From: an uncultured Bacteroidota bacterium
GTDB taxonomy: Bacteria; Bacteroidota; Bacteroidia; Bacteroidales; VadinHA17
Assembly: GCA_903844815.1 (NCBI GenBank)
Contig: CAIMVD010000117.1
Span: 1-40,076 of the forward strand
Reading direction: 5' to 3'
Length of the DNA: 40,076 bases
In this document: in pieces, positions 1-9,041 of the stretch
How positions within the stretch are numbered: the first letter of the stretch is position 1
Layout of the letters: every line of letters starts with the position of its first letter
The notes under the pieces: generated by a model
Seen by the model: the letters and a program-made list of their open reading frames with translations, nothing else
What the model was told of the DNA's origin: nothing
The model's database searches: none
Program-made: the position numbers and the translations under genes

Positions 1-125
1 AAGTTTTTTACTTTCTGCCATTTGCGACGATACCGGATAATAGTTCCTTCACTGCGATGGATGTCTCTCATATAGTCAAACATCACATTCATCAGATCGT
101 CAATAGTCTGTTTTTGATTTTCCAT
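1..125 (-). CDS. Tyrosine-recombinase/integrase, N-terminal part (runs off left edge)
   Basis: An open frame starts at the ATG at 125-123 and continues past the left edge; 41 codons are visible. The residues ending SEGTIIRYRRKW resemble the start of the SAM-like core-binding domain of tyrosine recombinases (pattern S-x-x-T-I-x-x-Y-x-x-x-W). The catalytic domain lies outside the window, so the family call rests on this short stretch. It points away from the truncated hsdR and is separated from it by about 170 bp that carry five copies of a 9-mer. That is the expected layout for the integrase end of a mobile element or of an invertible module. Alternative: an unrelated short helical protein. 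Confidence 0.5.
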   Translation of the reverse strand, partial: MENQKQTIDDLMNVMFDYMRDIHRSEGTIIRYRRKWQKVKN

Positions 126-175
126 TACCTTGAATATTTGGTTTCTGGCAATAGTGCCATATACAAGATAAAAAA

Positions 176-296
176 ATAATGTAAAGTGTTATTGTAACAA
201 AAAGGTCATTAATGCAGGTATTTAAGAGATTCTACGACCTCCACTTTACATTATCATATAGTTTACATTACCTCCGTAATGTAAAATTTTACATTA
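176..296. repeat. Cluster of five 9-mer recombinase-site-like repeats
   Basis: The 9-mer TTTACATTA occurs exactly five times: forward at 245-253, 262-270 and 288-296, inverted at 177-185 and 277-285. Copies 1 and 2 form a perfect 13-bp inverted repeat (176-188 with 242-254). Copies 3 and 4 form a perfect 10-bp inverted repeat around four bases. Copies 4 and 5 make a perfect 20-bp palindrome at 277-296 that ends one or two bases before hsdR homology begins. Clustered short sites in both orientations beside an integrase start suggest recombinase core and arm sites, or an autoregulatory operator. Confidence 0.6.
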
Positions 297-336
297 AACA
301 GGCAAAACGTATACAACGTTTCAAATTATATGGAGA

Positions 337-2046
337 TTGTGGAAGGCAAGGGTTGTGAAGCGCATCCTGTTTCTGGTCGACCGCAATATCCTCGCCGACC
401 AGACACTGATAAATGATTTCAAGCCATTTGGTTCGAAAATGACCAAGATAAAGAACCGGAAAATCGATCCTGCCTTCGAAATTTACCTCGGTTTGTATCA
501 GGCTATAACAGGGCCAGTTGAATCTGATAAAATCTTTAAAAACGTTTCACCCGACTTTTTCGACCTGATTGTTATCGACGAGTGCCACCGCGGAAGTGCG
601 GCGGATGATTCAGCCTGGCGTGAAATCCTGACCTATTTCTCTAATGCCATTCAGATAGGTATGACAGCCACACCAAAAGAAACAGAATACGTTTCAAACA
701 TTACTTATTTTGGAGAACCGGTTTATACTTACAGTTTAAAACAGGGAATTGCCGATGGATTCCTTGCTCCCTACAAAGTGGTGCGTATTGATATCGACAG
801 GGATATTGAAGGCTGGACACCGCCCCCGGGAATGAAGGATGATCTGGGTCAGGAAATCGAGGAACGTACCTACAATCAGTCCGATATGGACCGTATCCTG
901 GTGCTGAACCACCGGACAAAACTTGTCGCAAAACGGGTAATGAAACTTCTGAATGCCACTAACCCCTTCGATAAAACAATAATTTTCTGTGAAGATATCG
1001 ACCATGCTGAACGTATGAGGGTTGCAATTGTTAACGCTGCAGGAAAAATGGCCGCCGATAATCCAAAATATGTAATGCGTATAACGGGCGACAGTGTAGA
1101 AGGGAAGGCCGAACTTGACAACTTTATCGATCCTGAAAGTAAATTCCCGGTCATTGCAACTACTTCGGAACTTATGACAACGGGTATTGATGCAAAGACC
1201 TGCAAGCTGATTGTGCTTGATAAAACCATTCGTTCGATGACCACTTTCAAGCAGATTATCGGACGCGGAACCCGCATCGAGGAGGATTTCGGGAAGATGT
1301 TCTTTACAATTATGGATTTTAAAAAGGCAACAGAATTATTTCGCGACCCCGACTTTGACGGTGACCCGGTTGTAATTTATGAACCCGGTGATGATGACGA
1401 TCCTGTTCCTCCTGATCCTGAAGACCCGGACGATGATGGGGAAGGAGAGGAAGAAGACGAACATCCAGGGAGCAGAAAACTGTATGTAAGCGGAGTTCCG
1501 GCCAGGATTGTTGCGGAGAGAATCGAATATTATGGTGAAAACGGGCAGCTTATAACAGAATCGTACCGCGATTTCAGCAGGAAACAGCTTAAAACCGAAT
1601 ATGCTACACTCGATGACTTCCTTAAATCGTGGAATAACAGCATTAAGAAACAGGCTATTATCGACATGCTCGAAGATCATGGCATCATTCTCGAAAACCT
1701 TGCAGAAGAAATAGGCAGGGATTACGGCGATTTTGACTTAATTTGTCATATCGCTTTCGATCAGCCGCCATTGACCCGGAAAGAACGAGCGAATAACGTG
1801 AAGAAAAGAAACTATTTTACAAAATACGGTGAACAGGCCAGGTCTGTCCTGAATAATTTGCTCGACAAATATGCCGACAAGGGAATTGCTTCGATTGAAG
1901 ATACCAAAATCCTGAAATTGAAACCATTCAGCGAAATGGGGACTCCTGTTGAAATTATCAATCACGTTTTCGGAGGGAAAGCCAATTACGATAAAGCCCT
2001 TCAGGAACTGGAACACGAACTTTTTAATCAGAAAAAACTTGCATGA
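337..2046 (+). CDS. hsdR: Type I restriction endonuclease subunit R, 5'-truncated
   Basis: This is the helicase and C-terminal part of the HsdR motor/nuclease subunit. The visible start is a TTG at 337, but in-frame homology runs upstream to 298, where T-G-K-T (Walker A) is followed by [10 protein letters not shown]; the preceding codon is a TAA. DEAD-box motif DECH is at residues 81-84, motif III TAT near 110, and motif [10 protein letters not shown] near 305, followed by an acidic linker near 350-380 and an EcoEI-like C-terminal domain. The N-terminal PD-(D/E)xK nuclease domain and the start of Walker A are absent, so the fragment should neither cut nor translocate by itself. It overlaps hsdM by ATGA. 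Intact HsdR is usually 750-1000 residues, against 569 here. Probably a pseudogene, or one half of a switchable gene. Confidence 0.9.
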
Positions 2047-3506
2047 GTAATGTATCGGGCATAATTAAATCCATCCAGGATATTATGCGAAAAGACGTGG
2101 GTGTCGATGGTGATGCCCAGCGGATAAGTCAGCTGGTATGGATGTTTTTCCTTAAAATATTCGACGACCGCGAATCTGAACTGGAGCTGACAGAAGATGA
2201 ATATAAATCTCCGCTGCCCGGCCATCTCAGGTGGCGAAACTGGGCTGCAAATGCCGAAGGAATTACAGGTGATGAACTTTCTGATTTTGTAAACCTGCAG
2301 CTATTCCCGACACTTAAGGATAAACTGAATCTTCAGAACGCAAGGGCACAGGTAGTTCATAATGTTTTTGAGGATGCCTATAACTACATGAAATCGGGCA
2401 CTCTGATGAGGCAGGTAATAAACAAGATCAGCGAGATTGACTTCAATACGAAAAACGACAGGCATACCTTCGGAACCATTTACGAACAAATACTTAAAGA
2501 CCTTCAGAGCGCAGGGAATGCAGGTGAGTTCTATACCCCGCGAGCCGTTACAACCTTTATCGTCGACAGGGTAGCACCGCAGCTTGAAGAGCTTGTTCTC
2601 GATCCGGCAACCGGAACGGGTGGGTTCCTTACAAATGTGATTGAGTACAAACGCGATCGTTTTGTTCATACAGCTGCCGACGAATTGCTTCTTCAATCAA
2701 CAATTCACGGGGTTGAAAAGAAGACCCTCCCTCACATGCTTTGTACGACAAACATGATTCTGCATGGCATAGATACTCCAACCAATATCAGGCATGACAA
2801 TACACTTAGTCGTCCATTACGTGATTATGGCCCTAAAGACCGGGTTCATGTAATTGTAACCAATCCGCCGTTTGGCAGGATGGAAGAGGACGGGATCGAA
2901 AACAACTTTCCGGCGACCTTTCGTACCCGAGAGACTGCCGACCTGTTTCTGACACTTATCATTCACCTGTTAAAACCTCATGGCCGAGCCGCTCTGGTAT
3001 TACCCGATGGATTTCTTTTTGGTGAAGGCATCAAAACTCGTATCAAAGAAAAGTTATTCGAAGAATGCAACTTACACACCATTGTTCGGCTTCCAAATGG
3101 CGTGTTCAGCCCTTATACAGGCATAAAAACAAACCTCCTGTTTTTTACAAAGGGTAAGCCTACAGAAACTGTCTGGTATTACGAACATCCCTATCCCGAT
3201 GGAGTAAAAAGCTATAATAAGACTAAACCGATGCGTTTCGAGGAATTTCAGCCCGAGATTGTGTGGTGGGGCAGTGAGGCAGACGGTTTTGCGGCAAGGG
3301 TTGAAGACGATCAGGCATGGAAGGTATCGCTCGATGATATTAAAGCCCGTAATTATAACCTCGACATAAAAAATCCTCATATAGACGAACAAATAAGTCA
3401 CGAACCTGACGAGTTGCTGAAAAAATATCAGGAACAGCAGGAAAGCATTGGTAATTTGCGCAATAGATTGAAAGCCATTATAGGTGAGGCACTGAATACA
3501 GGATAA
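2043..3506 (+). CDS. hsdM: Type I restriction-modification methyltransferase subunit M
   Basis: This is the adenine-N6 DNA methyltransferase subunit, which acts with HsdS as an M2S enzyme using S-adenosylmethionine. The HsdM N-terminal helical domain covers about residues 5-130. SAM-binding motif I is DPATGTGGF at 187-195 and catalytic motif IV is NPPFG at 274-278. The length of 487 residues is normal. The ATG lies inside the hsdR stop (ATGA), so translation was coupled to HsdR. All motifs are intact, so methylation is probably still possible with the hsdS downstream even though hsdR is broken; such a system would behave as a solitary methylase unless the missing hsdR part can be restored. 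Confidence 0.95.
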
Positions 3507-3520
3507 AAAACTCTTTTGTC

Positions 3521-4360
3521 ATGAAAGATAAAGTTCAATTATTCGAAGAAAAAAAAGTTCGTACAGCCTGGGATGAGGAAACTGAAGATTGGTATTTCTC
3601 CGTTGTGGACGTAGTGGGCGTTTTAACCGACAGCCCCAATCCCAATAACTATTGGAAAGTGCTGAAAAACAGACTAAAAAAAGAAGGAAGTGAGTTGGTT
3701 ACAAATTGTAACCAACTGAAAATGGTCTCATCCGATGGGAAAAAGTATTTGACAGATGTGGTTTCTACTCAACAGCTTTTCCGGTTGATTCAGTCCATCC
3801 CTTCACCCAAAGCTGAGCCATTCAAGCTTTGGATAGCAAAAGTAGCCAAAGAACGTTTGGATCAGATGCAAGACCCGGAACTGTCAATTGAACAGGCTAT
3901 GCTGGACTATAAACGGCTGGGTTATTCCGACAACTGGATCAATCAACGCCTGAAAAGCATTGAGATACGGAAAGAACTGACCGACGAATGGAAATCGAGA
4001 GGCTTACAGGAAGGTGTTCATTTCGCCAGCCTTACGGATATCATTTATAAAACATGGGCCGATAAAACAGCCAGAGAATACAAAAATTATAAAGGGCTGA
4101 AAAAAGAGAATTTGCGCGACAATATGACCAATGCCGAACTGGTGTTGAATATGTTGGCCGAATTGTCAACCAAACAAATTTCGGAAGCAACCAATCCCGA
4201 TACTATGAATGAACATGTAAGGGTTGCCAAACAGGGAGGCGAAGTTGCCCGAAATGCACGCATTGAACTCGAAGAAAAAACAGGACAAAAGGTTATTTCT
4301 CCGATAAATGCCAAACAGGGTGTTTTGAAGAGCACTGATTTTAAAGAAATAGAAGAATGA
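3521..4360 (+). CDS. BRO-N / DinD-like protein embedded in the R-M operon
   Basis: The first 110 or so residues match the BRO-N (phage antirepressor/DNA-binding) fold: a WYFSVVDVVGVL start, then the YLTDVVSTQQLFRLIQSIPS signature. The C-terminal half (KTAREYKNYKGLKKENLRDNM, then QGGEVARNAR and EEKTGQKVISP) resembles DinD/BRO-C-like proteins. It starts 14 bp after the hsdM stop, and its own stop overlaps the hsdS start as ATGA, so it is a true operon member. BRO-N genes recur between hsdM and hsdS in many Bacteroidota type I systems; their job is not settled. By family it could regulate the operon or respond to DNA damage. There is no methylase or nuclease motif. Confidence 0.85.
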   Translation: MKDKVQLFEEKKVRTAWDEETEDWYFSVVDVVGVLTDSPNPNNYWKVLKNRLKKEGSELVTNCNQLKMVSSDGKKYLTDVVSTQQLFRLIQSIPSPKAEPFKLWIAKVAKERLDQMQDPELSIEQAMLDYKRLGYSDNWINQRLKSIEIRKELTDEWKSRGLQEGVHFASLTDIIYKTWADKTAREYKNYKGLKKENLRDNMTNAELVLNMLAELSTKQISEATNPDTMNEHVRVAKQGGEVARNARIELEEKTGQKVISPINAKQGVLKSTDFKEIEE

Positions 4361-6120
4361 TAAATTCATTTTTAACAGAACATATTCATATCTGGACCAC
4401 CGCCCAGGAACTGAAGACAAGCAATCGCGGTCTCAGCGCCGGGAACCAGAGCCTGCTGGGGATTAAGAAGCTGCGTGAGCTGATTCTGGAGCTTGCAGTA
4501 CGAGGCAAACTGGTTCCCCAGGACCCTGATGATGAACCGGCAAGTGTTCTTTTGAAAAAGATTGAAGAAGAAAAAAAGAGATTAATAAAGGAAGGTAAAA
4601 TAAAGAAAACTAAATTATTACCCAAAATTACTAGTGATGAAATCCCATTCATGTTGCCTAAAGGTTGGATTTTTGAAAGGTTAAATGAAATTGGAGAATG
4701 GGGAGCAGGTGCCACGCCAAACAGAAGTAAACAAGAATACTATGGTGGAGAAATATCCTGGTTTAAGTCAGGTGAATTAATTGGTGATTATATTTCTAAA
4801 TCTGAAGAGTTTGTAACTGAACTTGCATTAAAAGAAACTTCTCTGCGATATAATAAAATTGGCGATGTTTTAATAGCAATGTATGGAGCGACAATTGGAA
4901 AAACTTCAATTCTAGAGGTACCAGCGACTACAAATCAGGCAGTATGCGCTTGCACTCCATTTAAAGGAATTTATAATATATACCTCCTGTCCTTATTAAA
5001 AGCATATAAATCAAGGTTTATTGGAATGGGTGCGGGTGGAGCACAACCAAATATCTCAAAAGAGAAGATTATAGCTACCGTAATTGGTCTGCCTCCTCTC
5101 ACGGAACAGTACCGCATTGTCGCCAAAGTCGATGAACTGATGGCCCTTTGCGACGAGCTGGAAAAACAGCAAACTGTCACCAATGCCCTACATGAAACGC
5201 TAGTAACCAATCTTCTTGGCTCACTGACAGATGCCGGAAATTCAGACTCCTTTGACGAAGCCTGGCAACGAATTGAAAATAACTTTGATACCCTTTTTAC
5301 AACAGAACACAGCATCGATCAACTCAAACAAACAATCCTTCAGCTTGCCGTAATGGGTAAACTGGTTCCACAAAACCGGGAAGATGAGCCAGCCAGCGAA
5401 TTGCTAAAAAAGATAGCCAAAGAAAAGGTTCGGTTGGTTAAGGAAGGAAAAATCAAAAAACAAGCTCCTTTGCCTGAAATCACAGAAGATGAAAAACCGT
5501 TTGATCTACCGAAAGGTTGGGAATTTGTCCAATTAGCGTCATTAAGTAGCCTAATTACAAAAGGATCGTCTCCTAAATGGCAAGGCGTTTCATATACGGA
5601 AAATCCTGAAGATGTTTTATTTGTAACAAGTGAAAATGTTGGTAGCTATCAACTAATATTTGACAACAAAAAGTTTGTTGAAATGAAATTTAATGAGATT
5701 GAACCCCGATCTGTATTAATGAAGGGCGATTATCTTATGAACATTGTTGGAGGGTCAATTGGTAGAACGGCGATTTATAACATAGATGATTTAGCAAATA
5801 TTAATCAGGCCGTTTGTTTAATTCGTATTTTTCCTAATATTTTGGACAATCAGTACCTATTGCATTTTTTCAATAGTAGTGTATGTGTGTCCTTTATGTT
5901 TGACAAACAAGTTGATAATGCCAGAGCAAATTTAAGTATGGGAAATATATCAAAGTTTGTTATTCCCTTTCCACCTCTCGCCGAGCAACATCTCATTGTT
6001 TCCAAAGTCGATGAACTGTTTGCTATTTGCGATGCGCTGAAGGAGAGAATAGGTCTGGCCAGGGCGACACAGAATTTACTGGCAGGTGTGGTGGTGGAGC
6101 AGGCGCTAAAATCAGTTTAA
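4357..6120 (+). CDS. hsdS: Type I restriction-modification specificity subunit S
   Basis: HsdS chooses the bipartite DNA target for HsdM and HsdR. The 587-residue protein has two half-repeats. Each has a central helix that begins with a LILELAVRGKLVPQ-like or ILQLAVMGKLVPQ segment and continues through EGKIKK to LPKGW, then a target-recognition domain ending in a PPL-EQ-IV-KVDEL helix (near residues 245-265 and 545-570). The two conserved helix regions are clearly homologous to each other; the two recognition domains differ, so a bipartite asymmetric site is expected. The start overlaps the previous stop (ATGA). A second, homologous tail copy lies at 6480-6629, which suggests past recombination of recognition domains. 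Confidence 0.93.
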   Translation: MINSFLTEHIHIWTTAQELKTSNRGLSAGNQSLLGIKKLRELILELAVRGKLVPQDPDDEPASVLLKKIEEEKKRLIKEGKIKKTKLLPKITSDEIPFMLPKGWIFERLNEIGEWGAGATPNRSKQEYYGGEISWFKSGELIGDYISKSEEFVTELALKETSLRYNKIGDVLIAMYGATIGKTSILEVPATTNQAVCACTPFKGIYNIYLLSLLKAYKSRFIGMGAGGAQPNISKEKIIATVIGLPPLTEQYRIVAKVDELMALCDELEKQQTVTNALHETLVTNLLGSLTDAGNSDSFDEAWQRIENNFDTLFTTEHSIDQLKQTILQLAVMGKLVPQNREDEPASELLKKIAKEKVRLVKEGKIKKQAPLPEITEDEKPFDLPKGWEFVQLASLSSLITKGSSPKWQGVSYTENPEDVLFVTSENVGSYQLIFDNKKFVEMKFNEIEPRSVLMKGDYLMNIVGGSIGRTAIYNIDDLANINQAVCLIRIFPNILDNQYLLHFFNSSVCVSFMFDKQVDNARANLSMGNISKFVIPFPPLAEQHLIVSKVDELFAICDALKERIGLARATQNLLAGVVVEQALKSV

Positions 6121-6479: not shown

Positions 6480-6629
6480 GAGACTATCCCCGTTGAAGAG
6501 AATTATCGCATTGTTACTAAAGTCGATGAACTGTTTATGATTTGTAATATCCTGAAAGAGAGAATCTTCCAGTATCAGACCACCCAAAATTTGCTGGCAG
6601 GGGCGATGGTGGAGATTGATAAAGACTAA
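6480..6629 (+). pseudogene. Remnant of a second hsdS C-terminal tail
   Basis: Directly after the TAG at 6477-6479, in the same frame, 49 codons read through to TAA at 6627-6629. They include VEENYRIVTKVDELFMICN and TTQNLLAGAMVE. This matches the end of the upstream HsdS (IVSKVDELFAICDALKER and ATQNLLAGVVVE) residue by residue, with diverged DNA. There is no start codon or recognition domain, so it is a relic of a duplicated or recombined specificity gene. Its last bases overlap the 3' end of the convergent ImmA/IrrE gene. Confidence 0.8.
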
Positions 6630-7261
6630 CGAAATACTTCCAGGATCATTTCCTTTATTAGTCTTTTTTCTATAACACTTACAGAAACATCAAAGTCTGG
6701 AGCAATAATTATCGCTGCCTCTGAAATCATTTTTTCATCCTCAATCTTCTCTGCATCCCAACCAGCATTCCTTCTCATTACAACTCTCCGAGCTTCTTTA
6801 AAGGAATCTAACAATTGATCGTAGGGAACAAGGAGTCTGCCTGCAAACTCAGATGCTTGTGACTCAAACCATCTCAGAGGTTCTTCCTGCAGATTCATTC
6901 TAAAGTGTTTCCATTCATCATCTGATAAAAATCTGACCATGTCAATTGTACTACGATGTAATACAAGATGTCCGATTTCATGTGCAATCGTAAATCTTAC
7001 CCGTTTGTAAAATCGATCATCAAGGTACATACTCTCATCAACATAAATTGATTTAAAATCCCTTGAAATAAATCCTTCCATATCACACTCACGATGAAGT
7101 TCTTTAATTGGTATAATACTTATACCCATTGTGGCTTCAATCACGTGTTCTATCTGGACAGGAATGGAATAGTTAAAAATGTATTCATTCCGAAAATTAT
7201 CAGCAATTTCCCTTATCTGAGGAAATGTTAGTTTAACGGGTACTATTTCTCTGGGGTCCAT
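6626..7261 (-). CDS. ImmA/IrrE-family metallopeptidase
   Basis: A 211-residue protein with the zinc motif HEIGH at residues 94-98 in TIAHEIGHLVLH, and a downstream acidic ligand in WFESQASEFAGRLLVP (E133). That is the ImmA/IrrE (COG2856) signature. Family members cleave or inactivate a partner XRE-type repressor in response to stress or phage signals. The gene starts inside the end of the upstream XRE gene (19-bp overlap, 7243-7261), so the two form a translationally coupled repressor-protease pair. Its 3' end meets the hsdS relic tail to tail. The substrate is inferred from the family, not shown. Confidence 0.9.
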   Translation of the reverse strand: MDPREIVPVKLTFPQIREIADNFRNEYIFNYSIPVQIEHVIEATMGISIIPIKELHRECDMEGFISRDFKSIYVDESMYLDDRFYKRVRFTIAHEIGHLVLHRSTIDMVRFLSDDEWKHFRMNLQEEPLRWFESQASEFAGRLLVPYDQLLDSFKEARRVVMRRNAGWDAEKIEDEKMISEAAIIIAPDFDVSVSVIEKRLIKEMILEVFR

Positions 7262-7617
7262 GATGACCTGATTTTCTCCAATAAATTACTAAGTTCAACT
7301 TCAGATGGTTTCTCTCCCCTTACTGTGCGAAAGAACACTGGTAATTGGTCCAGGATCTCAGATTCAATCAGTCCTTCCGGAATTGCAGATAGTGCGGATA
7401 GATCACACATTTCCTTATATTCCTCTCCTCCTTTAGGTATACTAAGTACAGAAGCAATTTCATCGAGGACATGTTTACTCTGAGGTGGAAGCGCCAATCC
7501 TCTTTCAATTTTACTCCAATTGCTGGCATCGAAACCGACTAGCCTGCAAAATTCGCGTAGCGTTAATCCCGAAGCAATCCGCTTTTCACGGATAAAATTA
7601 GCAAATGATGATTTCAT
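7243..7617 (-). CDS. XRE-family transcriptional regulator, partner of ImmA/IrrE
   Basis: A 124-residue protein with an N-terminal helix-turn-helix (about residues 8-62, including GLTLREFCRLVGFDASNWSK and IERGLALPP). The C-terminal part (LIESEILDQLPVFFRTVRG, SNLLEKIR) is common in XRE partners of ImmA-type peptidases. It probably represses its own two-gene operon, with the downstream metallopeptidase relieving repression by cleavage. It is the first gene of the pair; 83 bp separate its start from the PIN relic upstream. Confidence 0.88.
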   Translation of the reverse strand: MKSSFANFIREKRIASGLTLREFCRLVGFDASNWSKIERGLALPPQSKHVLDEIASVLSIPKGGEEYKEMCDLSALSAIPEGLIESEILDQLPVFFRTVRGEKPSEVELSNLLEKIRSSWTPEK

Positions 7618-7700
7618 GTTTAGTTTGGCTTGTGGTACAAAATTACCACACTTATTTTAAATTATCAATACCACGCCCCAATTTATTTTGATTATTTATT

Positions 7701-7859
7701 TCAATCAAGCGTATATTCGCTTTTCTGAACCGAGTTTGTAATTTCGTTATATACAAAATCCGTAGTGTGAATTTCAAGATCCAAAGCGAAAAACTCCGGA
7801 AGTATTTGCAAATGGTACAAGTCGAAAAATACACTTACATCTGTAATAACTATTTTCAT
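7701..7859 (-). pseudogene. Truncated PIN-domain protein
   Basis: Fifty-two codons start at the ATG at 7859, which overlaps the stop of the upstream XRE-ImmA gene (ATGA). MKIVITDVSVFFDL has the first PIN-domain aspartate (D7) and the hydrophobic strand; LEIHTTDFVYNEI matches the next PIN segment. PIN ribonucleases usually have 130-170 residues with three or four acidic residues; here the frame stops after one third and the later acidic motifs are missing. It is therefore a 3'-deleted relic. Coupling to an XRE-ImmA gene suggests the intact locus was an ImmA/PIN toxin-antitoxin-like module. Confidence 0.65.
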
Positions 7860-8929
7860 ACAAGCTGATTCATTTGTGACCTGAGTTCCCACGATGAGAT
7901 GCCGGCAAAATATGCAGCTTCATTGATTGTAAGAACTTCTTTAGCTAACCCTACATAAACCAATCGCTCCATTCGCACAGGTCTTTCTTTCCCGCGGAAA
8001 CGTCCTGGTTCCTTATTGGGCACATGATATTTTCGTGCCCTATAACCTATATTAAATCTTTTATACACGTTCTTGTCAATAATCCCTAATTGTAAGGCGC
8101 GACTGAAGGTTGCCGAAAATGAAATGCCCCACCTTTCTTTTATTAATCCAAGCTCATTTTCATAGAAGTGAAACCTTTCCTTTTGCATCTCCTTCCTTGC
8201 CATTTCAGCAGGATATAATAACGCACTTGCGAAAGCATGACAAAGCTTTTCTTCTTCCTTTTCACTTATATTTTCAGAGAATTTCAATGAATGATGAGCT
8301 AATTCATGGAGAGCGGTAAATCTTTTCCGTACAACATCATCATTAGGATTGGTTTTTCGAAGGGCGATTACTTTTTTGTCACCAACATCAGCTTTAAATC
8401 CATCAAAAGAATCGGGCGCTTCTATTTCAATAACTTTATACCCCTTATCTTCGAGCATATCTATAACATCAGGTATCGGATCATAACCCAGATTCCATTC
8501 CTGACGAAGTTGTATGGCAGCATTTTCCGCATCTTCGGGGATCGCTATTATATGGGGATAACTGAAATATTGTCTGTCATCTTCTGCATTTAAAAGATTA
8601 TCTAATCCGAAATACCTTTCAAATGCTTCTTTTGCTTTTTCCTTGATTGATTCTTCTTCAATTGGAGACAACTTTGAAGAATACTTCCTGAACTCGAGAT
8701 TCAGGAAGCTGATCTTAATTTCCGGTTCAGAATAGAAATAGTTAACCGGTACATTCAGAATATTTGAAATGGCAATAACCACTTCACTGTTGGGTCTCAT
8801 CTTGCCTTGCTCATATTTGTTCAGCGACTGCTTTGAAACGACATTGCCTAGCTTGTCGGCTAAACTTTGTAGCGATATTCCAGCCATCTTTCGGGCAGAA
8901 ATTAATCTGTTTGCAAAATTGGTTTTCAT
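7856..8929 (-). CDS. XRE-HTH / ImmA-IrrE fusion protein
   Basis: The likely start is the ATG at 8929 (MKTNFANRLISARKMAG), 19 codons inside the longest frame, because the HTH domain begins there. Residues 5-65 form an XRE helix-turn-helix (SLQSLADKLG, SLNKYEQGKMRP). The C-terminal half carries an ImmA/IrrE zinc site, HELAH at 208-212, followed by EEEKLCHAFASALLYP. This fused regulator-protease architecture is common upstream of PIN or other toxin genes; here the partner is a truncated PIN gene coupled by ATGA. A C-terminal helical region (EVLTINEAAYFAGIS) may be an extra DNA-binding or partner-binding part. Predicted role: antitoxin and regulator. Confidence 0.88.
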   Translation of the reverse strand: MKTNFANRLISARKMAGISLQSLADKLGNVVSKQSLNKYEQGKMRPNSEVVIAISNILNVPVNYFYSEPEIKISFLNLEFRKYSSKLSPIEEESIKEKAKEAFERYFGLDNLLNAEDDRQYFSYPHIIAIPEDAENAAIQLRQEWNLGYDPIPDVIDMLEDKGYKVIEIEAPDSFDGFKADVGDKKVIALRKTNPNDDVVRKRFTALHELAHHSLKFSENISEKEEEKLCHAFASALLYPAEMARKEMQKERFHFYENELGLIKERWGISFSATFSRALQLGIIDKNVYKRFNIGYRARKYHVPNKEPGRFRGKERPVRMERLVYVGLAKEVLTINEAAYFAGISSWELRSQMNQLV

Positions 8930-9041
8930 CGTTGCAGGTGAGTTGGTGTTGACAAAGATACAAAAAATATACGAAATGTCAACCATTTTTTAAAATCATT
9001 TTTCCCAGCAGACCCTCTTAGGATTCTATTTTCATACCCCG

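Follow-up and report, generated by a model that had tools for sequence, protein, structure and literature searches.

The analysed stretch of DNA (the window, 40,076 b) is the entire contig C117 of a source genome of 6.37 Mb in 411 contigs, with an estimated contamination of 3.78%, and it carries a type I restriction-modification operon whose first gene is broken at the Walker A motif. The G-K-T codons of this motif, GGC AAA ACG, lie at positions 301-309, and the hsdR frame continues from there to a stop at 2046. The retained 3' part of hsdR, of the EcoAI/FtnUII type (303-2046, plus strand), starts on the Lys side of Walker A. The fragment from its first start codon (337) covers positions 201-768 of the 768-residue EcoAI/FtnUII HsdR model, so that about 190-200 N-terminal residues are absent from the window. 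Since C117 is the whole window, the break in hsdR coincides with a contig end at a repeat. The genes hsdM (2043-3506), whose start overlaps the hsdR stop (ATGA, 2043-2046), a gene with a Bro-N domain between hsdM and hsdS (3521-4360; PADLOC PDC-S13) and hsdS, with two specificity domains (4357-6120), all lie on the plus strand. All three are open, and HsdM and HsdS are complete by Pfam coverage, in agreement with a preliminary description of this DNA in which the methylase and specificity genes were held to be intact. Genes for HTH and ImmA/IrrE-type peptidase proteins, matching PADLOC RmrA/capP models, adjoin the operon (6626-8986, minus strand).

The bases before hsdR are occupied by one end of a mobile element. 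From the window start, the features are the first 41 codons of ritA, encoding a tyrosine recombinase (3-125, minus strand; ATG at 125-123, the frame running off the window start); the subterminal stretch on the ritA side of the element, its L-end (126-240), which aligns with the L-end of the related locus L068; a terminal inverted repeat with the tip ...GTTTACATTA (241-270), whose inverted partner lies at the other end of the full copies L067, L068 and L075; a hexamer CCTCCG (h2, 271-276) between element tip and palindrome, which varies among copies; a perfect 20-bp palindrome, TAATGTAAAATTTTACATTA, consisting of two element tips back to back (277-296); and a hexamer AACAGG (h3, 297-302), which is the same at contigs C264 and C80 and is read here as a coupling hexamer carried by the element. 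The preliminary description had reported a cut inside Walker A, a TAA and a palindrome before the hsdR frame, and a recombinase-like start on the minus strand, and these were all borne out. The hsdR gene resumes at 303 within the G|KT codons, the TAA of the hsdR frame falls inside the palindrome, and the minus-strand ATG opens a RitA piece identical over 41 residues to the N-terminus of L068 RitA (against L059, 33 of 41 residues match by an eye count). The 41-codon piece gave no further match when searched against its own genome.

The earlier proposal of an integrase-bearing element inserted in hsdR also agrees with comparison to a full-length relative. Locus L068 (CAINLJ010000163.1, from another public assembly) has an element whose ritA frame ends early; window positions 1-271 are identical to its L-end at 265 of 269 aligned nucleotides, and the end of contig C278 of the source genome is identical to its other end (R-end) at 137 of 140. 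By its sequence, the window end is one end of a RIT (recombinase in trio) element of ~3.5 kb, a kind of element described since 2009. RITs are characterised by three adjacent tyrosine recombinase genes, a length of ~3,500 bp and terminal inverted repeats of ~28-34 bp accompanied by palindromic sequence, and further by two CB domains in RitA, an extra C-terminal helix in RitC and gene overlaps of 4-8 bp. The source genome assembly lacks the core of the element, and length was judged on the full copies L067, L068, L075 and L069, which measure 3510, 3505, 3492 and 3489 bp, respectively, between the outer repeat ends. Each of these has three consecutive recombinase frames in the same direction (with ritA ending early in L068). 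In L075, the trio on which Pfam was run, all three proteins match Phage_integrase (PF00589), and the recombinase frames overlap when compared as open frames. Pfam alone gives RitA one SAM-like domain, at 116-193, with about 115 residues ahead of it. A match to pHG1, a RIT-rich plasmid of C. necator, showed 28% identity over 89% of the query (E 1e-40). The trio, the length, the inverted repeat with its palindrome and the kinship of the recombinases were thus all found, and the identification as a RIT follows from the match in size, trio and repeat-plus-palindrome ends to the accessible text of the published description (PMC3414803).

An intein was considered as well and rejected. A TAA stands in the hsdR frame just before the junction, stops occur in all three minus-strand frames of window positions 1-330, and the genes of the relatives are recombinases. 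The window-end DNA, searched against 98 genomes, gave two weak matches besides its own genome (G052, E 5.8e-5; G018, E 3.5e-4); in G052, which carries a same-genus element, the host gene is presumably istA. Among 395 genomes of the class, L059 RitA had a single match at E <=1e-60, 36% identical, and the branch is therefore rare in that sample.

Within the source genome, the 30-mer end repeat is found without mismatch at five places, with 0 control matches, and all five are contig ends (C117, C122, C264, C80 and C278). As the repeat at the four other contig ends lies each time beside a Walker A half-motif, the association is more than chance. Window positions 135-273 recur identically at the end of C122.

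The preliminary description had called for a search for the missing hsdR 5' part, and a fitting candidate was found in the same assembly: most likely, judging from the comparisons below, the 5' part of the window hsdR lies on the separate contig C278. The hsdR half on C278 is joined to the R-end of the element and the window half to the L-end, and these opposite ends fit one ordinary insertion. The suggestion that the junction might be the boundary of an invertible module is not sustained by this arrangement, in which one junction has the R-end and the other the L-end, as in a single insertion. Comparison with intact relatives agrees with the pairing: the intact HsdR proteins in L148-L150 share 53-55% identity with C278 in their N-halves and 57-59% with the window in their C-halves.

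The junction sequence had first suggested C122 as the 5' partner, which would involve an inverted element pair or both orientations in the population. C122 reads LATGTG at its junction, within the N-half of an HsdR; the hexamer at its end, TACAGG, differs by one base from AACAGG. However, C122 and C117 would then both bear the L-end, and the intact HsdR proteins in L151/L152, which match the C122 N-half at 87-91% identity in their own N-halves, reach only 38-39% identity to the window in their C-halves. On this comparison of halves C122 was rejected, and we regard it as a highly improbable partner. It is probably a second hsdR of another type (hsdR-B), which the same end of the element interrupts at the identical Walker A codon. 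This second hsdR piece occupies bases 956-1503 of L003, and the assembly yielded no 3' half for it. When the own genome was searched with the window HsdR C-half, no other 3' half appeared at E 1e-60; a 3' half of the L151/L152 type would score ~1e-77 in that search. With C278 as the partner, it is very likely that a RIT element of ~3.5 kb, ritA-ritB-ritC, was inserted in the Walker A motif of hsdR (hsdR-A), leaving the 5' part on C278 and the 3' part on C117, and that its target was read as DNA.

The same position in the motif is used repeatedly. Nine insertion sites of this RIT branch were found, and in eight of them the element separates the last Gly codon of Walker A from the Lys codon; in the source genome all four interrupted genes (hsdR-A, hsdR-B, istB and an HprK-like gene) are cut at this boundary. 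In hsdR-A, the Gly side is on C278 and the Lys side on C117, as the proposed pair; in hsdR-B only the Gly side is present (C122), and in the istB gene of C264 (PF01695) and the HprK-like gene of C80 only the Lys side. The C80 piece itself has no Pfam match, and its HprK-like name rests on a 31% relative, L163, which reads SASGSGKST and matches TIGR04352 below the cut-off (55.8 vs 200 bits). Outside the source genome, the Gly side alone is seen in an istB gene in L059, and both sides, within one contig, in the istB genes of L067, L068 and L075. Both sides of the motif in one contig are thus available at three of the eight Walker A sites, with one side alone at C264, C80, C122 and L059. The RitA proteins of L067, L068 and L075 are 74-80% identical to L059 RitA, and that of L069, the ninth site, is 61% identical. 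L069 is not a Walker A site; its junction, GTGG^TAAAC, lies in the C-terminal part of a large protein, presumably helicase/methylase-like, and it fits a target at the DNA level rather than at the protein level.

Could such a pattern arise from artefacts or from chance? All five own-genome junctions are at contig ends, and assembly chimeras at a repeat might be suspected as their source. However, L067, L068 and L075, from independent assemblies, each contain a full element within a single contig, with both of its junctions at these codons, and chimeras would not respect a codon, which makes this explanation hardly credible for the junctions. The second explanation would be RIT insertion without any target preference, the Walker A position being due to chance or to survival in dispensable genes. 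Other RIT branches do interrupt many kinds of gene, and survivors would be favoured in dispensable genes, istB accounting for five of the eight Walker A sites. On the other hand, one codon boundary is used in eight of the nine sites of the branch and in three gene families, against a background in which 60 of 3109 GGNAAA sites (1.9%) lie in Walker A (81 sequences: 80 loci and the window), and four of four genes in the source genome are cut at that boundary. The corresponding P of 1.7e-13 is only nominal, since the five istB sites among the eight may have a common history. Insertion without preference is very improbable on these counts, although selection still counts as a contributor, as insertions in essential ATPases would go unseen. 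C122 or other contigs could also be foreign, given the estimated contamination. Taken by their sequences, the sites show a clear preference of this RIT branch for one codon boundary of Walker A, in ATPase genes of several kinds.

The junctions have a regular anatomy. Of 80 related loci, 41 gave a junction table and 39 were dropped (26 with weak or flankless repeats, eight too short and five with no repeat). Usable repeats were present in 49 loci, and 25 of these have a palindrome at a distance of exactly 6 bp outward from one end repeat; at any other offset from 0 to 30 it was found in no more than five loci of this set. In these 25 resolved copies, the hexamer at the bare junction equals the hexamer beyond the palindrome in 13 (among which the flanks of L072 and L074 are mutual inverted copies and the right flank of L101 is cut) and equals the reverse complement of the inner hexamer in eight. 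A strict 6-bp target duplication was rejected, as the hexamers are equal in just 13 of 25 and unequal in the proposed hsdR pair, where h1 is TACCGG (C278) and h3 is AACAGG (C117); hexamers are likewise unequal in 12 of the 25 resolved copies elsewhere. For this reason a strict duplication was replaced by an overlap hexamer that would come from either the target or the donor. AACAGG is common to C117, C264 and C80, and an intact relative of the C264 istB (368 of 400 nucleotides identical) has CCTGGG where C264 has AACAGG, so that the element most likely brought this hexamer with it, as far as the comparison with that relative goes.

Read as its reverse complement, the inner hexamer has GG as its last two bases in seven of seven cases of the Walker A branch: C117 CGGAGG, C264 TTGTGG, C80 AACAGG, L067 GTGCGG, L068 CTGCGG, L069 TTCTGG and L075 AGTGGG. 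This GG may be the record of a previous target or simply part of the element end.

At the Walker A sites the palindrome stands on the Lys side in six of six cases (C117, C264, C80, L067, L068 and L075) and is absent from the Gly side of C278, C122 and L059. The element runs in one direction in L067, L068 and C80 and in the opposite direction in C117, C264 and L075. Since the palindrome keeps to one side while the element occurs in both directions, it is the target that decides where the palindrome stands in this branch, and the element can point either way. When all branches are taken together the regularity is weaker: with the reading frame chosen roughly by the longest open run, the palindrome lies on the 3' side in 19 of the 25 flagged loci and on the 5' side in six (L080, L088, L098, L110, L113 and L132).

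These observations are consistent with the following mechanism. The RIT element, with ritA-ritB-ritC between inverted repeats of ~30 bp, would integrate between the Gly and Lys codons of the hsdR Walker A motif. The recombinases are supposed to act on a core site of two arms of ~10 bp around a 6-bp overlap, and the circular form of the element would carry a joint of tip-h2-palindrome-h3-tip, modelled here with two equivalent crossover sites, so that either of the core sites beside the palindrome could be used. The overlap hexamer would derive either from the target or from the site that the element occupied before, and the target sequence would fix on which side the palindrome comes to lie but would leave the element free to point either way. 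Recognition would be of the DNA itself (roughly nnnnGG^nAAA with its flanks), and Walker A would be struck since its codons spell this sequence. We lean towards the broader reading that this RIT branch homes on P-loop DNA in any fitting ATPase gene, with the side fixed, the direction free and the hexamer recording the previous host.

A different role for the element had been put forward in the preliminary description, namely a reversible switch between restriction and methylation-only states, in which the recombinases would excise or flip the element and toggle restriction while HsdM and HsdS keep methylating. Tyrosine recombinases are capable of excision and inversion, and hsdM and hsdS are open. 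Recombinase-driven excision and reintegration at a type I locus is known from the pneumococcal tvr locus, where hsdS is shuffled, according to the available excerpt of PMC6265443. However, the contigs of the assembly show neither an empty site nor a second orientation at the hsdR-A locus, and only one orientation fits its two halves. This element end is also found next to a second hsdR, istB and the HprK-like gene, which points to a repeated mobile element rather than to a switch dedicated to restriction-modification. RIT transposition has moreover not been reproduced in the laboratory, as far as the accessible part of PMC10214605 states. The overlap of the hsdM start with the hsdR stop means in addition that the insertion may be polar, that hsdM may need transcription or translation from upstream, and that loss of HsdR may not necessarily spare methylation. 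The sole match to the Bacteroidota promoter pattern in the window is at 5927-5954 on the minus strand, below the 2.5 expected by chance, and a sigma-70 scan of positions 1-700 was uninformative (four sites against 2.2 expected). For these reasons a switch seems very unlikely, and the insertion of a RIT with a Walker A target is preferred.

Other RIT branches split other genes. An automatic two-halves test on the 49 loci with a usable repeat returned Walker A at L067, L068 and L075 only. Among the genes split elsewhere are those for IS66 transposases (L082, L109) and rve transposases (L081, L099), a DDE_Tnp_1 gene (L137) and a topoisomerase gene (L121), and an element of another branch at 10266-11666 of L132 lies in an EcoEI-type hsdR of Prevotella sp. 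P6B1, away from Walker A. A Pfam search of the interrupted genes in L076, L115 and L146 gave no match. Parabacteroides gordonii has three RIT copies in one genome (L121, L122 and L123), which adjoin the reading KPSVAKDIA. The L121 gene being a DNA topoisomerase gene, this suggests that the P. gordonii branch also has a conserved-motif target. RITs of a further branch split the gene in L127 into the pieces FKGGTSLSKAW..RF and SRDKFSEDIDLAVD; the pieces in L138 are similar, as is L106 on the first side only, and these split genes resemble, and may be, genes for AbiEii-type nucleotidyltransferases. In L072, L074, L100, L114 and L134, inverted copies of the same flank, with arms of 77-292 bp, stand on both sides of the recombinase genes, which could be caused by both orientations in the population, by recombination between copies or by an artefact of short-read assembly.

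The kind of element is known, and the target is a new variant. In the accessible parts of the RIT literature (PMC3414803, PMC2864759, PMC10214605, PMC8138268 and PMC5385486), Walker A is not described as a target; the sites named there are radC, the tnpA of IS66 and the transposase gene of a Tn6049-like transposon. The available text of PMC10214605 lists target specificity and mode of movement of RITs as not tested. A search of the literature on transposons or RITs that target Walker A found no such target recognised, with a mention in Ricker et al. 2013 possible. The Walker A target and the junction anatomy of RIT elements were apparently not previously described. The RITs of Cupriavidus metallidurans CH34 and C. 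necator pHG1, in the portions of PMC3414803 and PMC2864759 at hand, share with the present elements the trio, the length of ~3.5 kb, the inverted repeat with palindrome, the occurrence in multiple identical copies and the insertion within IS and other genes; unlike them, the present branch has a repeated target, Walker A-coding DNA.

Other known systems resemble it in part. In tyrosine recombinase transposons of the Tn916/Tn554 type, a short overlap hexamer is carried from the previous site, as is proposed here; the RIT differs in its three RIT-type recombinases, in the palindrome unit on one side of the target and in its other targets. The phase-variable tvr locus likewise has a recombinase at a type I restriction-modification locus but shuffles its hsdS genes, in the excerpt of PMC6265443, whereas the present case is an hsdR gene broken by a self-contained mobile element. 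Inteins are removed from the protein by splicing and spread by endonuclease homing. P-loop inteins are the closest parallel in target choice, since they are also mobile elements in the Walker A codons of ATPases (TerL and MCM), as given in the accessible sections of PMC5050341 and PMC10643990. The TerL1-a and MCM-a intein sites given there follow the Lys, whereas the RIT sits before it, and the RIT, unlike these inteins, breaks the gene and carries tyrosine recombinases.

A codon-exact, repeated target and a readable junction code make the target choice and movement of RITs directly testable. A preference for Walker A would also explain the loss of type I restriction, with two hsdR genes affected in one genome, as a by-product of that targeting. 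It would be a case convergent with the P-loop inteins, in which highly conserved codons serve as a stable landing site for mobile DNA, and, if true, this RIT branch would be the DNA-recombinase counterpart of the P-loop inteins.
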